This document shows, one piece after another, positions 18,677-31,446 of a stretch of DNA of 46,118 nt (its first letter is position 1; each line of letters begins with the position of its first letter). The position numbers and the translations under genes are program-made. The stretch spans positions 1 through 46,118 of the forward strand of contig CAMFIS010000008.1 in the NCBI GenBank assembly GCA_945952345.1, read 5' to 3'. Under the pieces are notes generated by a model. It was given only the letters and a program-made list of their open reading frames with translations. It was not told the DNA's origin and did no database searches. The DNA is from an uncultured Fimbriimonas sp. (lineage in GTDB: Bacteria; Armatimonadota; Fimbriimonadia; Fimbriimonadales; Fimbriimonadaceae).

Positions 18677-19254
18677 AGACCCTTGGAAAACTGACCGTGG
18701 TGTGCGGAAGCATGTATGCCGGGAAGAGCGAAGAGCTCATTCGTCTGGCGCGCCGCAGCCTGTATGCCAAGAAGCGAGTGCAAGTCTTCAAGCCAAGCAT
18801 CGATGATCGCTATCACCAGACCATGGTTGTCTCGCACATGGGCGTTCAGCACGAAGCCGAGACGGCCAAGAATGTGGCTGAACTCCAAATCAAGGTGAAG
18901 AAAGACACGCAGGTTCTTCTTATCGAGGAAGTTCAGTTCTTCGACGAGAAGATTGTGGATTTCTGCGTCGCGATGGCCGATCGTGGGGTTGATGTGATTT
19001 GTGCGGGTCTCGATCAAGATTTCCGGCGGCAACCGTTTGGCCCGATGCCAAAGCTCTTGGCCGCTGCCGACGAGGTCATCAAGCTTCGGGCGATCTGTAT
19101 GAAGTGCGGCGCTCCGGCTTCACACACGTACCGAATGGTGGACGGCAAACCCGCCCACTGGGACGACCCCATCGTGCTGATCGGGGCAACTGAAAGCTAT
19201 GAGGCGCGATGCCGAAATTGCTTCGAAATCCGAAAGGGGCGAAAGAAGAGTTAG
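18673..19254 (+). CDS. tdk: thymidine kinase
   Basis: A 193-residue type II thymidine kinase, which phosphorylates thymidine in nucleotide salvage. The P-loop GSMYAGKS is at residues 12-19. The Walker-B-like region is VLLIEEVQFFDE, the lid region is LDQDFRRQPFGP, and a zinc site is formed by CMKC and CRNC. The start is TTG at 18673, overlapping the previous stop, with AGGAG 10 nt upstream. The 3' end overlaps the convergent gene by 4 bp. Confidence 0.95.
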   Translation: MKTLGKLTVVCGSMYAGKSEELIRLARRSLYAKKRVQVFKPSIDDRYHQTMVVSHMGVQHEAETAKNVAELQIKVKKDTQVLLIEEVQFFDEKIVDFCVAMADRGVDVICAGLDQDFRRQPFGPMPKLLAAADEVIKLRAICMKCGAPASHTYRMVDGKPAHWDDPIVLIGATESYEARCRNCFEIRKGRKKS

Positions 19255-19934
19255 TCGGCGACGCGAGTCATCTTCAGCTCAATCTTCTTCATCGAAGCTT
19301 CACCGATCTTCGGATTGTCCAACGTAACTTCCAGCTTCTGGAGCGAGAAATCGCTCACTCGGACAAAGATCGTTCCGTCCGATTCACCGGACGTATCCTT
19401 CTTCGAGAGCTTGCCCTTAATGCTTAATTTGAGGCAATCCTGATCGCCGACTTTCTCGATCCCTTCCAGTTTGCAATGCAGCGTTCCGGCGTCGATTTCT
19501 TTATCCCAGCTTTCGCCGACCTTGACTGCGTGGTCGGGTTCTTCCGAGATCAAGTCGCTCATGAGATTTGAGACCGGATCGTCCTCGTCGTCGCCCTCTT
19601 TCTTGACTTCTTTGCCGTCTTTGTCGTACTTGTGTACGACCGGATCGGTTTTTTCGACGGCAGACTCTTGGCCGTTGACCTTCATCGTGCCTTCGAGAGT
19701 TGTCTCTTCCATCTCGTACGCGCCGTCTTCAGCCACGCTCACCACCTTGTAGCGATCTTTGGATTTGAGTTGAATCTCGGACATGTCGTCCACGATCGTC
19801 ATTTCGGACTCGTATGTCTCCACCGCGTCCTTCTTGTACACCTGTTTGAGGGTGTAGGTGTCGTCCGCTCGAAACCCGGCCAGGCTGAGCACTGCGATGG
19901 AAAGCGGGAGCAGACGAGAGAGTTTCATGTTCAT
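19251..19934 (-). CDS. secreted protein, member 1 of three tandem paralogues
   Basis: A 227-residue product with a signal peptide (cleavage near LAGFRA-DD). The mature part starts YTLKQVYKKDAVETYES, contains HAVKVGESWDKEI, and ends with a beta-rich half (KLEGIEKVGDQDCLKLSIKG). These blocks recur in the next two genes upstream. A clustered Asp/Glu/Lys stretch (EVKKEGDDEDD) lies in the middle. The family resembles DUF6263-like secreted proteins, from memory only. Function unknown. Confidence 0.75.
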   Translation of the reverse strand: MNMKLSRLLPLSIAVLSLAGFRADDTYTLKQVYKKDAVETYESEMTIVDDMSEIQLKSKDRYKVVSVAEDGAYEMEETTLEGTMKVNGQESAVEKTDPVVHKYDKDGKEVKKEGDDEDDPVSNLMSDLISEEPDHAVKVGESWDKEIDAGTLHCKLEGIEKVGDQDCLKLSIKGKLSKKDTSGESDGTIFVRVSDFSLQKLEVTLDNPKIGEASMKKIELKMTRVAD

Positions 19935-19984
19935 AGTATTGTTCGACTTTGTTTCGAATCTCAGAGCACTCGAGAATATTGAGG

Positions 19985-20647
19985 CTATTCCTTCAGGAAT
20001 TCCGATCGCTCAAGGTAGTGAACCACTGGAACGTCGGGCAAGACGACGTCGTCGGCATTGATCTCGCGATACATCACTTGACCGTCCTTGGTTCGGAACC
20101 ACTCGTCTACCTTAAAGGTACCGGTGACGCCATTCGTGAAAGTTCCCTTGCGGGTGACCTGAATGCACTCCTCACCGTTGAACTTCTTGATCTGCCCGGC
20201 TGTAACTTTGTATTCGGTATTCGCGGTCTTGTCGTTCCAGGTTTCGCCAACCACGACGGTATGATCCTTCAGCTTCATGTGAACCTCCTGCATGAAGAAG
20301 GCGAGCGGATCCGACTGTAAAGTTGCCTTGTCTTCCTCTTCGTCGAAGCGTTGACCAAAGGAGTTTTGCCGATATCCAAGCACTTCACCCTTGGCGGACT
20401 CTTTCTCGCCGCCATTCACCTGTCGAGTGCCGTCCGTGTACGTCTCTTCGATGTCTTGAATGCCGTGGCTGTTTACTTCGACGCACTTGTGTTCGGCGGT
20501 CACGTCCCAAATGGTCTTCTTGTCGCCGATCTGGAAGCTGATCAGCGTTTTCAGCTTGTAGGACTCCCCTTCCTTGAGAGCCCGCGATATCGGAATCTCA
20601 CTCAAGACGGGGCTGAGCATGGCTAAGGCAAGCAAGATTCGAATCAC
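19985..20647 (-). CDS. secreted protein, member 2 of three tandem paralogues
   Basis: A 220-residue product with a signal peptide (MIRILLALAMLSPVLS), starting at GTG 20647. Shared features with its neighbours are the opening EGESYKLKTLISFQIG, the central HTVVVGETWNDKT and the GQIKKFNGEECIQVTRKG block. It is the most diverged of the three. A TAAGAT box lies 8 nt before the GTG and no Shine-Dalgarno is seen. The hairpin at 20699-20723 separates it from member 3, so it probably has its own promoter. Confidence 0.75.
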   Translation of the reverse strand: MIRILLALAMLSPVLSEIPISRALKEGESYKLKTLISFQIGDKKTIWDVTAEHKCVEVNSHGIQDIEETYTDGTRQVNGGEKESAKGEVLGYRQNSFGQRFDEEEDKATLQSDPLAFFMQEVHMKLKDHTVVVGETWNDKTANTEYKVTAGQIKKFNGEECIQVTRKGTFTNGVTGTFKVDEWFRTKDGQVMYREINADDVVLPDVPVVHYLERSEFLKE

Positions 20648-20698
20648 GACTAATAATCTTAACCGTGCTCGGCGAAATTAGTTCACGGATAAGCAAAG

Positions 20699-20723
20699 AA
20701 GGGAGGCGAATTTCGCCTCCCTT
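20699..20723 (-). terminator. terminator after member 3 of the secreted paralogues
   Basis: A 12-bp perfect stem (AAGGGAGGCGAA at 20699-20710 with 20712-20723) has a 1-nt centre. On the minus strand it is followed by CTTTGC. It lies 24 nt after the stop at 20747. Confidence 0.7.
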
Positions 20724-20746
20724 ATCATCGATTAAGTTCGGAGAAC

Positions 20747-21445
20747 TTACTTAACTCGCTCGGTGGTCATCGAGCCGGACAGAGCGACCGGAGCCGCTGG
20801 AACCGGAACGTTGGTCCACTTGGAAACGGACTTGATGAGACCGCAATCTGCCTTAGAAATCCAAACGGTTCCTTCGGAGCTTGCCGGCGTATCGCCTTCG
20901 GTTTCGGCCGTCTTGAATTCGATCTTGAAAGCATCGTCGCCGTCGATCTTCTCTTCGCCAACAATCTTGTAAGTCGACTTTACGCCAACTGCTTTCGTGT
21001 CCTTGTTCGCCGCAATCGTTCGATCCCAGGTCGAGCCGACCTTAACCGCATCGGTCGGAGGAATGAACGACATCAGGTTCTGCATTCGGTAGGTCTTTTC
21101 GTCGATATTGTCACCGCGGATCTCTTTGATCTCGCCGTTTGGCTTCAACACGATCACCATCGCAGGCTGACCCTCGATCGGAATCTCGGTGCCTTGAACA
21201 ACGGCTTTACCTTCGATGACGCCGTCTTCGGTGGTTACCGTGCCGTCTTCGGCGATCTCTTTCACCTTGCTTTGATTGAGCATGGTCACGCTGACTTCCG
21301 TACCTTGGAGGTCGAACGTACCCTTCATTCTCATCTTGGTGACACTGTCTTTCTTAAAAACGTATTTGAGTACAACACCATCGACCGCGTAGGCTGTGGC
21401 CGCCGTGAGCAGAAGCGCGATACCCGTGAATTTGAGAGCTTTCAT
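20747..21445 (-). CDS. secreted protein, member 3 of three tandem paralogues
   Basis: A 232-residue product with a clear signal peptide (ALLLTAATAYA-VDG). AAGGGA lies about 5 nt before the ATG. The mature part starts VLKYVFKKDSVTKMRMKG and contains DAVKVGSTWDRTI, YKIVGEEKIDGDDAFKIEFK and GTVWISKADCGLIKSVSKW. This is the most regular member of the three-gene family and carries its own terminator. Confidence 0.8.
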   Translation of the reverse strand: MKALKFTGIALLLTAATAYAVDGVVLKYVFKKDSVTKMRMKGTFDLQGTEVSVTMLNQSKVKEIAEDGTVTTEDGVIEGKAVVQGTEIPIEGQPAMVIVLKPNGEIKEIRGDNIDEKTYRMQNLMSFIPPTDAVKVGSTWDRTIAANKDTKAVGVKSTYKIVGEEKIDGDDAFKIEFKTAETEGDTPASSEGTVWISKADCGLIKSVSKWTNVPVPAAPVALSGSMTTERVK

Positions 21446-23512: not shown

Positions 23513-24034
23513 ATGAAGAAAACATTTGATCCTCTTCAATACATTGAAAGTGCCTTTCTCGATCATTCGAAGGAATCGAATGAGAAGGACCTTCCCAGCA
23601 TTAAGAAGTACGTAGCGGGTCAAGTGAAGCTGCCGCGAGGCAAGTTCCGTAAGACGGAAATGAGTGCGCCCCGTCCCCGTCGAAAGGCCAACGTGGTCGT
23701 TTCGAACGCCGTCGATCCTGACCTGCAATTCATCTGGAAAAAGATTCCCAACAGCGTCACGTTCCTCGCTTCGTTGTACGACGATGGAGTGACCTCCAAC
23801 TACTATCGTGGCGAATTCAAAGAAACGCGGCAAGAACTTATCAAGCGTTTGCTCGATCCCCAGCTCACCCTTGAGGAAGTCAGCCGACTCCTGGGCGTAT
23901 GCCCAACGACGGTCCGCCGATACACCAACCGTGGCTGGCTGACCCACCATCGCACTGCCGGTGGTCAGCGAAGGTTTCTGCTCAGCGACCTCGTGACGTT
24001 TGTCGAGACCCACGGTCGGTTCCCAGAAGGATAG
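23513..24034 (+). CDS. DNA-binding protein with MerR-like helix-turn-helix
   Basis: A 173-residue protein. The C-terminal third (about 120-168) is a MerR/excisionase-type winged HTH: LTLEEVSRLLGVCPTTVRRY, then NRGWLTHHRTAGGQRRFLLSDL. The N-terminal part is basic and Pro-rich (KLPRGKFRKTEMSAPRPRRK) with no recognised domain. AGGGA lies 6 nt before the ATG. It lies between queA and a glycosyltransferase, 29 nt after queA. Probably a transcription regulator; target unknown. Confidence 0.85.
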   Translation: MKKTFDPLQYIESAFLDHSKESNEKDLPSIKKYVAGQVKLPRGKFRKTEMSAPRPRRKANVVVSNAVDPDLQFIWKKIPNSVTFLASLYDDGVTSNYYRGEFKETRQELIKRLLDPQLTLEEVSRLLGVCPTTVRRYTNRGWLTHHRTAGGQRRFLLSDLVTFVETHGRFPEG

Positions 24035-24054: not shown

Positions 24055-25242
24055 TTGAAACCTCTCCGCATTGCCATGTTCTCTGACAGTGTATTGCCAA
24101 TGCGCAATGGCGTCAGCATCAGCATCGATCTGCTCGTTCAAGAACTCCGCAACAAGGGGCACCAGGTGTATATGTTCGCCCCACGCTTTCCGGGCTACAC
24201 GGAGAGCGACCCCAACACCATTCGATTCCGCGCCATCGAGACGCCGTGGGCCAAAGGGCACCCGATCGCTTATCCGCCGTACTGGAGAAAGCTACGACGA
24301 TTTCGCCAAAACCACTTCGATATCATCCATACCCACACACCCTTCATTGTTGGATTCGTTGGCATGCGGTGGGCCGAATCGCACGAGATTCCCCTGGTCT
24401 CGACTTACCACACCCTTTACGACCGGTATACGCACTACATGTCGGCACTGCCTCGTCGCTATCTTCGCTTTCGTGTGGCCAAGCACACCAACTTCTATTA
24501 CAACAGCGCGAACGAGGTGATCACCCCGAGCGAGGTTGCCAAGCGTTGGCTTCTGCGTCATGGCGTCGAGAGCCCCATTACCGTCATTCCCACAGGAACT
24601 CCCAGGCCCCAAATGATTCCTCGTGCTGAGGCTCGCCAAATGTTGGGCATTTCGCTCGACCAACGCGTGTTACTTTACGTGGGACGACTCGCGAAGGAAA
24701 AAAACATGGAGACGCTGCTGGAGACCGCCAAGCTGGTGACCGAGCAAGACCCTCGCGCCCGAATGTGGATCGTGGGCGATGGCCCCCACCGCGAGGAATG
24801 CCTCGCGGTCTCTTCTCGGTTGGGGATTGGGGACAAAGTGCGCTTCGTTGGCTCGGTACCTCGTCAGGAAGTCGACAAGTATTATGCGGCGGCCGACCTG
24901 TTTACGTTCGCCAGCGTGACCGAAACTCAAGGATTGGTGCTGAGCGAAGCCATGCAATATGGGATTCCCGCGGTTGCCGTCGATGGCGGCGGGGCGAGCG
25001 AGTCGATCGTCGAGGGCGAAAACGGGTTTGCGACGAAGAACGATCCGGTCGAGATGGCCGAAACTATCGTCGACGTCCTCGCCAACGAGGCACTTTACGA
25101 ACAACTTTGCCGAGGCGCAGAAAAAACGGCGAGGCAAAATACGCCCGAAGCCATGTGCGACCGAGTGCTGGAGGTCTATCGACGGGCCATCGACGGAGGA
25201 GAAATTTCGCTTGTATCCCAGACAAGAAGCTACGCAAACTAA
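24055..25242 (+). CDS. glycosyltransferase family 4 (GT-B), diacylglycerol/phosphatidylinositol glycosyltransferase-like
   Basis: A 395-residue GT-B enzyme. The N-terminal domain starts RIAMFSDSVLPMRNGVSISI and contains DIIHTHTPFIVG and STYHTLYDRYTHY. The C-terminal nucleotide-sugar domain has YVGRLAKEKNMETLL, IVGDGPHREE and the EX7E-type SVTETQGLVLSEAM. This set matches retaining GT4 enzymes that glycosylate membrane lipids. The start is TTG 24055; a TAGACT box ends 12 nt upstream. The 3' end overlaps the next gene by 32 nt and supplies its ribosome binding site. Confidence 0.9.
   Translation: MKPLRIAMFSDSVLPMRNGVSISIDLLVQELRNKGHQVYMFAPRFPGYTESDPNTIRFRAIETPWAKGHPIAYPPYWRKLRRFRQNHFDIIHTHTPFIVGFVGMRWAESHEIPLVSTYHTLYDRYTHYMSALPRRYLRFRVAKHTNFYYNSANEVITPSEVAKRWLLRHGVESPITVIPTGTPRPQMIPRAEARQMLGISLDQRVLLYVGRLAKEKNMETLLETAKLVTEQDPRARMWIVGDGPHREECLAVSSRLGIGDKVRFVGSVPRQEVDKYYAAADLFTFASVTETQGLVLSEAMQYGIPAVAVDGGGASESIVEGENGFATKNDPVEMAETIVDVLANEALYEQLCRGAEKTARQNTPEAMCDRVLEVYRRAIDGGEISLVSQTRSYAN
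25195..25201 (+). promoter_or_regulatory. Shine-Dalgarno GGAGGAG deciding the start of the presenilin-like gene
   Basis: GGAGGAG sits inside the glycosyltransferase gene, 9 nt before the TTG at 25211. This supports translational coupling and that start codon. Confidence 0.75.
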
Positions 25243-26215
25243 GGTCGGCTACCGGGACTTCGCCATCATCCTGGTCGCGATGGGCGCCATACGAGCCGTC
25301 ATTCCCTTTATCCCGGTTCCGAACGCCGCACAGACTGCCGTTAACTTTGTCATTCTTGTTGGCACATTTTGCCTCACCGTTTACGCGATCTATCGGGCGA
25401 TGTCCGAGACTCCGGGCCCAAAGCCAGCCCTTCTCTTCCTCCTATCCGGCGTCTTTCTCCAGGTGATGGCGATCTTCGTCCTTGCGCCCTTGGCCGGAAA
25501 GTCGGGACTTGGAGCGATCGGCGTCGGCATCCTGAACAGCACCGGCCTTATGGTCTGGTGCGTCGGCCTCGGGGCACTCATTGCGAGCCTGCTCCGCGAG
25601 AAGAACATTCTTATCCCGGTCGGAATGTTCCTCATTGGGTACGACATGTTCCTGGTTCTGGCTCCGAAAGGATTCGTCCAACAATCGCTGAAAGCCGACC
25701 CAAGTGTCTTCCAGAAAATGGCGCTGGCCATTCCCAAGGTATCTTCGTCGTCGCAGAATATTGCCAACGCGGTGGCAGCCACGGCGGCCTATGTCGGACC
25801 AGCCGACCTGGTCTTCCTCGGCGCGTTTTTCCTCGCCATGTTCCGGTTTCAGATGCGTCCACGGGAGACGCTTCTGTGGATGATTCCGGCCCTTATCTTA
25901 TACATGTTGGTCGTCTTGTTCACGGGATGGAACTTGCCCGCGTTGGTGCCAATTGGGTTGGTTACCTTGCTGGTAAACCGAAAGGAATTCAAACTGAGCA
26001 AGGACGAGTGGGCGTCGACAGTGGTACTGCTCGTCATCATCGCAGGCGTGCTGGGATTCCTGGCTACGAGGAAGCCAAAGCCGCCAGTTGCGCCTTCGCC
26101 GTCGGCGGTTTCTGCAAGGTCGTCAGAATCGGCAAACTCGCCTGGGCCAGCAGATTCAAATCAACTCCTGTCGACAGACCCGACCGCTCGGCAAAATACA
26201 CCAAATCCTCCGTAG
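25211..26215 (+). CDS. polytopic membrane protein, candidate presenilin/SPP-like intramembrane aspartyl protease
   Basis: A 334-residue protein with about nine hydrophobic segments (roughly 17-36, 41-63, 72-95, 101-128, 132-151, 184-211, 219-238, 241-256, 268-286) and a disordered Pro/Ser-rich tail. Two segments carry buried aspartates: GYDMFLV (YD at 144-145) and VGPADLVFLG (GPAD at 196-199). A later segment carries NLPALVPIG (PAL at 243-245). The order YD, GxGD, PAL, with one transmembrane segment between the last two, is the active-site signature of presenilin and signal peptide peptidase (family A22). The deviation is GPAD instead of GxGD. The TTG start is supported by GGAGGAG. The tail overlaps the convergent HMG-CoA lyase gene by 152 bp. 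The assignment is by motif only; it could be an unrelated membrane protein. Confidence 0.5.
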   Translation: MYPRQEATQTKVGYRDFAIILVAMGAIRAVIPFIPVPNAAQTAVNFVILVGTFCLTVYAIYRAMSETPGPKPALLFLLSGVFLQVMAIFVLAPLAGKSGLGAIGVGILNSTGLMVWCVGLGALIASLLREKNILIPVGMFLIGYDMFLVLAPKGFVQQSLKADPSVFQKMALAIPKVSSSSQNIANAVAATAAYVGPADLVFLGAFFLAMFRFQMRPRETLLWMIPALILYMLVVLFTGWNLPALVPIGLVTLLVNRKEFKLSKDEWASTVVLLVIIAGVLGFLATRKPKPPVAPSPSAVSARSSESANSPGPADSNQLLSTDPTARQNTPNPP

Positions 26216-30471: not shown

Positions 30472-31338
30472 CTACTTCTTCGCGCGTCGCTTGCGAATCA
30501 TCGCCAGGGCGCCGAGGCCAAGGGCACACATCGACGTCGGTTCGGGAACCGCTTCGAAGTTGAACGTCTTGTTGTTGCCGCCAAAGCCGATCTGGAGGTT
30601 ATCCATTCCGCCCTGGAAGGTGCCATTGAACGAGCCAATACCTGCGTTCACGCTGATAACTTGATAACCTTGACCCGAGAGAATGCTCTTCCAATCGGCG
30701 AAGGTTCGCTCATGGTTCGTTCCTGCGCCTGGATCATAGAGCGTATTCAGATCGCTCGATCCTCGGAGCCACATGCTCGAAGCGTTATTGAAGATATCGA
30801 CCGTGTTCCACTGATTGTAGTTGAACGTGCCGAAATGGCCCGGACTCCAAGCGGTGTCAAAGATCAACTGGCCGTACTTGTTACCGGCTGCCGCGCTGAA
30901 GAGCTCGAGCCGCAAGATTGGAGCCTGGTTACCGCTATCCGGCGAGAGGGCCGTGTAGAGGTCTGCGCCGAATGCCGACAGCGAGTCGAACGATCCCAGA
31001 CTGCCAGCAGAATCGCCAGCGCCAGTAAAGCCGGTACTCATCGCGATTTCAGCTTTGCCGCCAGCCGTGCCGTTGGTCGCAAACCAAACCGAACCGTTGC
31101 CGCTCTGCGGGAGGTTTGTGTTGATTCCAACCGTTCCGTTATTCTTGGTTTCTCGGTAGGTGACCTTTTCGGGTCCGCCGCCGCCGACGTTGGTAACCAT
31201 TTGGTTAGCCGCGCTGGAGCCGGGGTTGGTGAAATAGTCGCCAGGAGCAAAGCTGTTGCTCCAGACGGTCTGCGCCTGGGCCGCAACTGCGCCGCCAAGC
31301 AAGCCTAATACTAAAGTAATTTTCACTGGGTTCTTCAT
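30472..31338 (-). CDS. PEP-CTERM sorting domain surface protein
   Basis: A 288-residue exported protein. A signal peptide (KITLVLGLLGGAVAAQA) is followed by a Gly/Asn/Ser-rich domain with no recognised enzyme motifs. The C-terminal PEP-CTERM tail has VPEPTS at its start, a hydrophobic helix (CALGLGALAMI) and a basic end RKRRAKK. Such proteins are sorted to the surface by exosortase/EpsH-type transpeptidases; no exosortase gene is in the window. The ATG at 31338 with GAGG 6 nt upstream is preferred over the TTG at 31350. The terminator follows. Confidence 0.9.
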   Translation of the reverse strand: MKNPVKITLVLGLLGGAVAAQAQTVWSNSFAPGDYFTNPGSSAANQMVTNVGGGGPEKVTYRETKNNGTVGINTNLPQSGNGSVWFATNGTAGGKAEIAMSTGFTGAGDSAGSLGSFDSLSAFGADLYTALSPDSGNQAPILRLELFSAAAGNKYGQLIFDTAWSPGHFGTFNYNQWNTVDIFNNASSMWLRGSSDLNTLYDPGAGTNHERTFADWKSILSGQGYQVISVNAGIGSFNGTFQGGMDNLQIGFGGNNKTFNFEAVPEPTSMCALGLGALAMIRKRRAKK

Positions 31339-31446
31339 GGGTTCCCTCAAACAGAACCGATTGTAAACCCGTACTTCACCTAGCTGGGCAATTTACGCGC
31401 AAATTTTATGAAAACCTGGAAATAATGCAGGCAAAATAGCTCAATA

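Follow-up and report, generated by a model that had tools for sequence, protein, structure and literature searches.

Introduction

Presenilin is an enzyme linked to Alzheimer's disease that cuts proteins inside membranes, and the G384A substitution in human presenilin-1 (PS1) is a familial Alzheimer's mutation. Together with the signal peptide peptidases (SPPs) and their SPPL relatives, it belongs to family A22. Outside eukaryotes, presenilin-like GxGD proteases were introduced in archaea, according to the available part of PMC2947513, in which SPP orientation appears opposite to that of presenilin. An excerpt of PMC13026331 describes the loop between transmembrane helices TM6 and TM7 of SPP as luminal, and gives type II proteins as the targets of SPPs and SPPLs and type I proteins as those of presenilins. 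Here, we compare with these systems a gene of an uncultured Fimbriimonas sp. (Armatimonadota), located in a window, i.e., the whole stretch of DNA analysed, of 46,118 nucleotides (contig CAMFIS010000008.1, positions 1 to 46,118, forward strand). The gene (25211..26215, + strand) is an open frame of 334 amino acids with a TTG start, and an original prediction, made from the letters of the window, had proposed it as a candidate bacterial protease of the presenilin/SPP type.

This proposal gained support, as both aspartates are kept in the homologues and the best structural matches found by VIA-align belong to A22. We hold with considerable confidence that the protein is homologous to the presenilin/SPP (A22) superfamily. 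Its sequence and model also make protease activity probable, and the reading as a whole, in which this bacterial protein is an intramembrane protease of the di-aspartyl kind and a homologue of presenilin and SPP, is likely to be right; a role on signal peptides is plausible, if slightly short of probable. The computed support consists of the likeness of the predicted fold, the likeness of the catalytic half, two Asp and a PAL proline that never vary among the near homologues, and the charges of the loops.

Conserved motifs in the bacterial homologues

The predicted model exhibits nine helices, taken as membrane helices, the eighth (245-255) being short, in agreement with the about nine hydrophobic segments read from the sequence. 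The motifs YD (residues 144-145), GPAD (196-199) and PAL (243-245) lie where they had been announced, and their order and spacing also hold in the model: D145, the predicted first catalytic Asp and equivalent of PS1 D257 (codon 25643..25645, +), falls in the fifth helix (134-150), D199 in the sixth (197-212), and PAL (25937..25945, +) begins the eighth helix, two helices past D199. The second predicted catalytic Asp, D199, is part of the GxGD-type motif GPAD (25796..25807, +), recognized by its conservation. Between the catalytic helices, residues 172-195 (25724..25795, +) form two predicted strands and a loop (strands 172-176 and 190-195 by DSSP of the model). The extra C-terminal, ninth helix has at its foot E266 (26006..26008, +), for which we know of no A22 counterpart.

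Two protein searches yielded 107 and 189 homologues, the second giving 120 among the matches listed. Alignment A1 comprises P0001 and 36 of the 107 proteins of the first search; alignment A2 (n = 140) comprises P0001 and 139 of the 142 others listed, P0002, P0029 and P0079 being left out; alignment A4 holds the window fragment and 138 proteins, P0102 being additionally left out. The near set refers to the 140 aligned homologues, and the distant set to 50 divergent ones that represent 39 families of the phylum; the loci of the latter were hand-picked for spread among 261 positive genomes.

Nine columns are invariant in the near set (G80, G121, P136, D145, G196, A198, D199, P243, and P247), a pattern that goes beyond chance. 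The alignments agree with the predicted catalytic pair, D145 and D199 being present in 140/140 near and 50/50 distant homologues. All 50 distant members also keep G196 and E266, 48 of them P243 and 47 L245, and the Tyr preceding D145 is not conserved (F in 82 and Y in 40 of the 140 near members). The expected invariance of PAL holds for its proline, P243 (140/140 near), and fails for the exact motif, found in 116/140 near and 21/50 distant homologues; the others of the distant set read PGL (16), PLL (6), PVL (2), or one of five singles.

The second motif was considered the weak point of the original prediction, as it reads GPAD in place of GxGD. Exact GPAD occurs in 131 of the 140 near members, all of which, window protein included, are GxAD. 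At position 198, the distant set has Gly 35 times and Ala 15 times, the motif being GPAD (10), GFAD (5), GLGD (8), GIGD (8), GPGD (7), GVGD (7), GFGD (2), GAGD (2), or GGGD (1), and three distant loci (L081, L098, and L104) carry GLGDFIF, identical to PS1. The objection is therefore largely resolved by the GxGD of these 35 relatives and persists for the window lineage itself, where GPAD is best understood, from the sequences, as a variant of an older GxGD. Outside the phylum, both Asp are kept in 7/7 proteins from six genomes, five of them GxGD, and a 22-row alignment with six outside relatives has only the two Asp and two Gly as invariant columns. The outside relative L158 was left out of that alignment and entered the 65-sequence profile used below in a form trimmed to 330 residues. 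It has a much longer open frame (740 amino acids within the locus G405:C4, 1134 reported), a possible fusion, and its genome holds a second copy, L152, of 319 amino acids.

Likeness to family A22

The predicted structure has the presenilin fold of A22 members. A search for similar structures, which the original prediction had named as a check, answered in two ways: VIA-align ranked presenilin, SPPL2a and PSH highest, the 19 top rows being all A22, whereas Foldseek alone was not significant (best E 0.058; no match at E 0.001). In the structural alignment, P243 falls onto PS1 P433 and SPPL2a P463, provided that the ends are ungapped.

By sequence, Presenilin is the Pfam family matched by most members (13/140, best E 0.016, all below cut-off; among the matches listed, which covered 25 of 62 families). 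In three inspected weak matches the D145 equivalent lies at position 185 of the Presenilin profile, as does PS1 D257, and L157, one of the seven outside relatives, matches Presenilin at E 0.0033. As a yardstick, a C-terminal fragment of PS1 itself does no better than E 0.006 against A22B, its sister family. The curated A22 models PF01080, PF04258, and PF06550 gave weak matches only, below every cut-off, and PF06550 gave none over cut-off, and five weak ones, in 201 Armatimonadota genomes.

Profile comparisons, whose E-values are those of single comparisons, point to the catalytic half. The 65-sequence bacterial profile matched PS1 250-467 at E 1.8e-4 (probability 49%), with none of 100 shuffles as high; GxGD and PAL were aligned and the first Asp was not. 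With PS1 290-376 excised, the match reached E 8.6e-5 (60%; 0/100 shuffles) and YD, GxGD, and PAL were all in register. PS1 378-449 alone gave E 9.9e-5 (0/60 shuffles as high), and four unrelated multi-helix open reading frames of the window, taken as control, scored at most 13.5.

Several results weigh against the assignment to A22 and against a fully active enzyme. Helical models may reach such Z in VIA-align through their common arrangement, the missing significance in Foldseek has been mentioned, and helices 5-8 modelled alone gave a poor model (predicted local distance difference test, pLDDT, 63.8) without useful match. No match over cut-off was obtained in the family libraries (Pfam, NCBIfam), nor any sequence match in the PDB. 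Single members match unrelated families better (Cyt_bd_oxida_II 3.2e-5, DUF2157 1.1e-4, CbtA 2.1e-4), and 17 of 20 members scanned singly had no Presenilin match. The PF01080 search of the window genome hit one place, on another contig and not this gene (E 0.027), and 7/14 control genomes also gave matches below cut-off, so that the weak Presenilin matches weigh little singly. The region of the first Asp alone was not significant (PS1 250-300, E 0.11, 3/60 shuffles; PSH 155-205, 2/60 shuffles); as PS1 378-449 was, the significance resides in the GxGD-PAL half. Against a PSH alignment (A3, 29 of the 120 proteins listed, from 4662 PSH-type proteins), the 65-sequence profile reached E 0.0094 (4%), with 0/100 shuffles as high and the Asp pair in register; smaller profiles gave one aligned column (A2), E 0.0096, and E 0.07 (2/60 shuffles as high), and single-sequence PSH was no better than shuffles (28/60). 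The motifs GLTD and GVSD are carried by 2/7 relatives from other phyla. Finally, with the Ala found in GPAD, PS1, SPPL2b, and PSH all work more slowly: as reported in the accessible part of PMC2947513, G219A slows proteolysis by PSH, as do G384A in presenilin and its equivalent in SPPL2b.

Apart from these points, the place hit by PF01080 in the window genome (L032, G000:C10:9465-9893; 13.5 bits, below cut-off) is probably a chance match.

Orientation and proposed function

The predicted loops that share the N-terminal side of the membrane are richer in Lys and Arg than the opposite ones in 140/140 near, 46/50 distant and 7/7 outside proteins; the same count with both tails gives 134/140, 46/50, and 6/7. 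In the near set, the catalytic-helix loop has the most Lys and Arg of any single loop (3.2), but spread along a stretch of 44. Under the positive-inside rule, the charge counts predict a cytoplasmic N terminus and an external D145-D199 loop, which suggests the SPP arrangement.

We infer that D145 and D199 would pair within the membrane and activate water to cleave helices unfolding in it; the two strands ahead of D199 would hold the edge of the substrate, and PAL would shape the site. Given the predicted N-in, loop-out orientation, as in SPP, cutting of N-in segments is expected; type II anchors and the remnants of signal peptides might thus be substrates, and the enzyme might serve housekeeping clearance of the membrane. 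With A198, the enzyme of the window lineage is expected to work more slowly or with greater selectivity than its GxGD relatives do, and not to be dead, since both Asp are retained.

Two observations weigh against a signal-peptide role: SppA (S49) occurs alongside the family in many other Armatimonadota, and the window genome has an M50 protease. This genome, a 3.96-Mb draft of 304 contigs that is 92% complete, gave matches for M50 and A24 (PF01478) and none for S49. Within the family of the window genome, only three of 70 genomes at least 90% complete match S49 (G011, G014, and G017). Across the phylum 85/205 genomes match, 74 of them over cut-off, and many also carry the presenilin-like gene; a simple replacement of SppA was therefore rejected as a general rule.

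Distribution, genomic context and alternative explanations

The near profile detected the family in 261/291 Armatimonadota genomes, with one match in most; among those with completeness of 90% or more and contamination of 5% or less, the count was 183/194. With a broader profile, 203/393 genomes at least 90% complete were positive, i.e., 197/205 inside the phylum and 6/188 outside. Near-complete (97%) non-carriers are G047 and G241 (family f1, genus g29) and G089, G102, and G115 (family f18); as g29 genomes are small (1.5 Mb), loss through genome reduction is possible in that genus. One genome (G134, family f26) has a tandem pair (G134:C1:5630794-5631594 and 5631754-5632590, +). Named homologues in the protein searches were few: Fimbriimonas, Fimbriimonadaceae, Fimbriimonadales, and Armatimonadetes bacteria.

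The TTG start is backed by many homologues of 334 amino acids and is preceded, at nine bases, by a probable ribosome-binding site read by eye (GGAGGAG, 25195..25201, +). P0002, another record of this protein, has 311 amino acids, hence a start placed later. Upstream lies a GT4 glycosyltransferase gene (24055..25242, +; Pfam) overlapping the protease gene by 32 bases, and another neighbour encodes a DNA-binding protein of the MerR/HTH_17 type (23513..24034, +; Pfam, synteny). Of 30 near loci (L002-L031; L002 and L011 look like one genome), whose flanks mostly span some 1.5 kb, 27 have the GT4 gene upstream and 29 have a convergent HMG-CoA-lyase-like gene downstream. A coupling to a glycosyltransferase thus shows in the near loci; among the 50 distant loci, none has a same-strand GT4 gene upstream of the protease gene. 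A glycosyltransferase as general partner was rejected on this count, and a coupling confined to near loci carries little information on function.

The same genes bear on the alternative that survives best, namely a dedicated signalling protease, in which the same chemistry would serve to cut a single type II regulator or envelope protein, or a small number of them, rather than signal peptides at large. Three points speak for it: most genomes have one match, a slow GxAD site could suit regulation, and HTH and glycosyltransferase genes adjoin within one family. Neighbours vary, though, the short flanks that were examined showing no partner gene shared across the phylum, and in 17/50 distant loci the downstream gene belongs to one cluster, an example of which reads by eye as a leucyl-tRNA synthetase, a housekeeping-looking setting. 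We thus regard signalling as possible and rather unlikely, and the lack of a shared partner suits a solitary housekeeping enzyme.

That the protein is a relative with the presenilin fold and without protease activity (pseudo-enzyme, scaffold, scramblase, or channel), its acidic pair serving another purpose, is improbable: the sequence alone is compatible with other functions and GPAD replaces GxGD in this lineage, but both Asp are among the few residues invariant in near and distant homologues, the usual mark of kept catalysis. Least of all do we expect a member of A24 (prepilin peptidase or FlaK type), cutting after class III signal sequences, for while A24 also uses two Asp, one in GxGD, and FlaK is termed GxGD-type in a source seen in excerpt, A24 is not known to have a PAL motif, a separate gene of the window genome matches PF01478, no A24 model in Pfam or NCBIfam matches the window protein, the families listed in Pfam for 140 members (25 of 62) and in NCBIfam for 28 members include none, and the top structural rows are A22.

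Two observations concern other parts of the window. Three consecutive open reading frames (19251-21445, -) of 220-232 amino acids are alike by eye (signal-like N terminus, VKVGESWDK) and were read as tandem secreted paralogues. Another (30472-31350, -) has a PEP-CTERM-like tail (VPEPTSMCALGLGALAMIRKRRAKK, by eye), which suggests an exosortase-type sorting system in the genome.

Significance and comparison with known systems

We recognized no paper describing a bacterial member in searches of the open-licence PubMed Central literature, and claim no priority. The phrase "bacterial presenilin homologue" stands in the accessible portion of PMC8396450, where we suspect that it denotes archaeal PSH. 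With a bacterial family that is conserved in a phylum and has no name in Pfam or NCBIfam, the presenilin-like GxGD class would reach the third domain of life. The family offers small, apparently solitary enzymes for studies of mechanism and inhibitors, and a natural comparison of GxGD with GxAD at the position of PS1 G384A. The new sequences also bear on the origin of presenilin, for which Raut and colleagues reportedly proposed, in the title of a 2021 article, an archaeal root. A bolder proposition, which we offer tentatively and consider doubtful, is that bacteria hold their own deep presenilin/SPP branch, near-universal in one phylum and scattered elsewhere, with a catalytic core closer in sequence to eukaryotic presenilin than that of archaeal PSH is, and that one lineage fixed a Gly-to-Ala change of the PS1 G384A type as its normal state; if bacteria do hold such a branch, the archaeal root needs re-examination.

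As no curated model accepts the protein and its own motif is GxAD, it was filed outside the presenilin, SPP, and PSH families proper. Compared to PS1 (A22A, the catalytic subunit of gamma-secretase), the model has four helices before the first Asp instead of five and one more helix after PAL, the predicted membrane orientation is opposite, and the window protein has GPAD. The loop between the catalytic helices has about 45 residues here and about 105 in PS1 (E277-L381), as given in a partial source. With regard to SPP and SPPL2a (A22B), the sequence match is weaker than to PS1, PALVPIG stands in place of QPALLY, and the model has an extra C-terminal helix. Archaeal PSH/MCMJR1 (PF06550) presents PPL before its last helix, according to the available part of PMC2947513, whereas the bacterial proteins present PAL, PGL, or similar.
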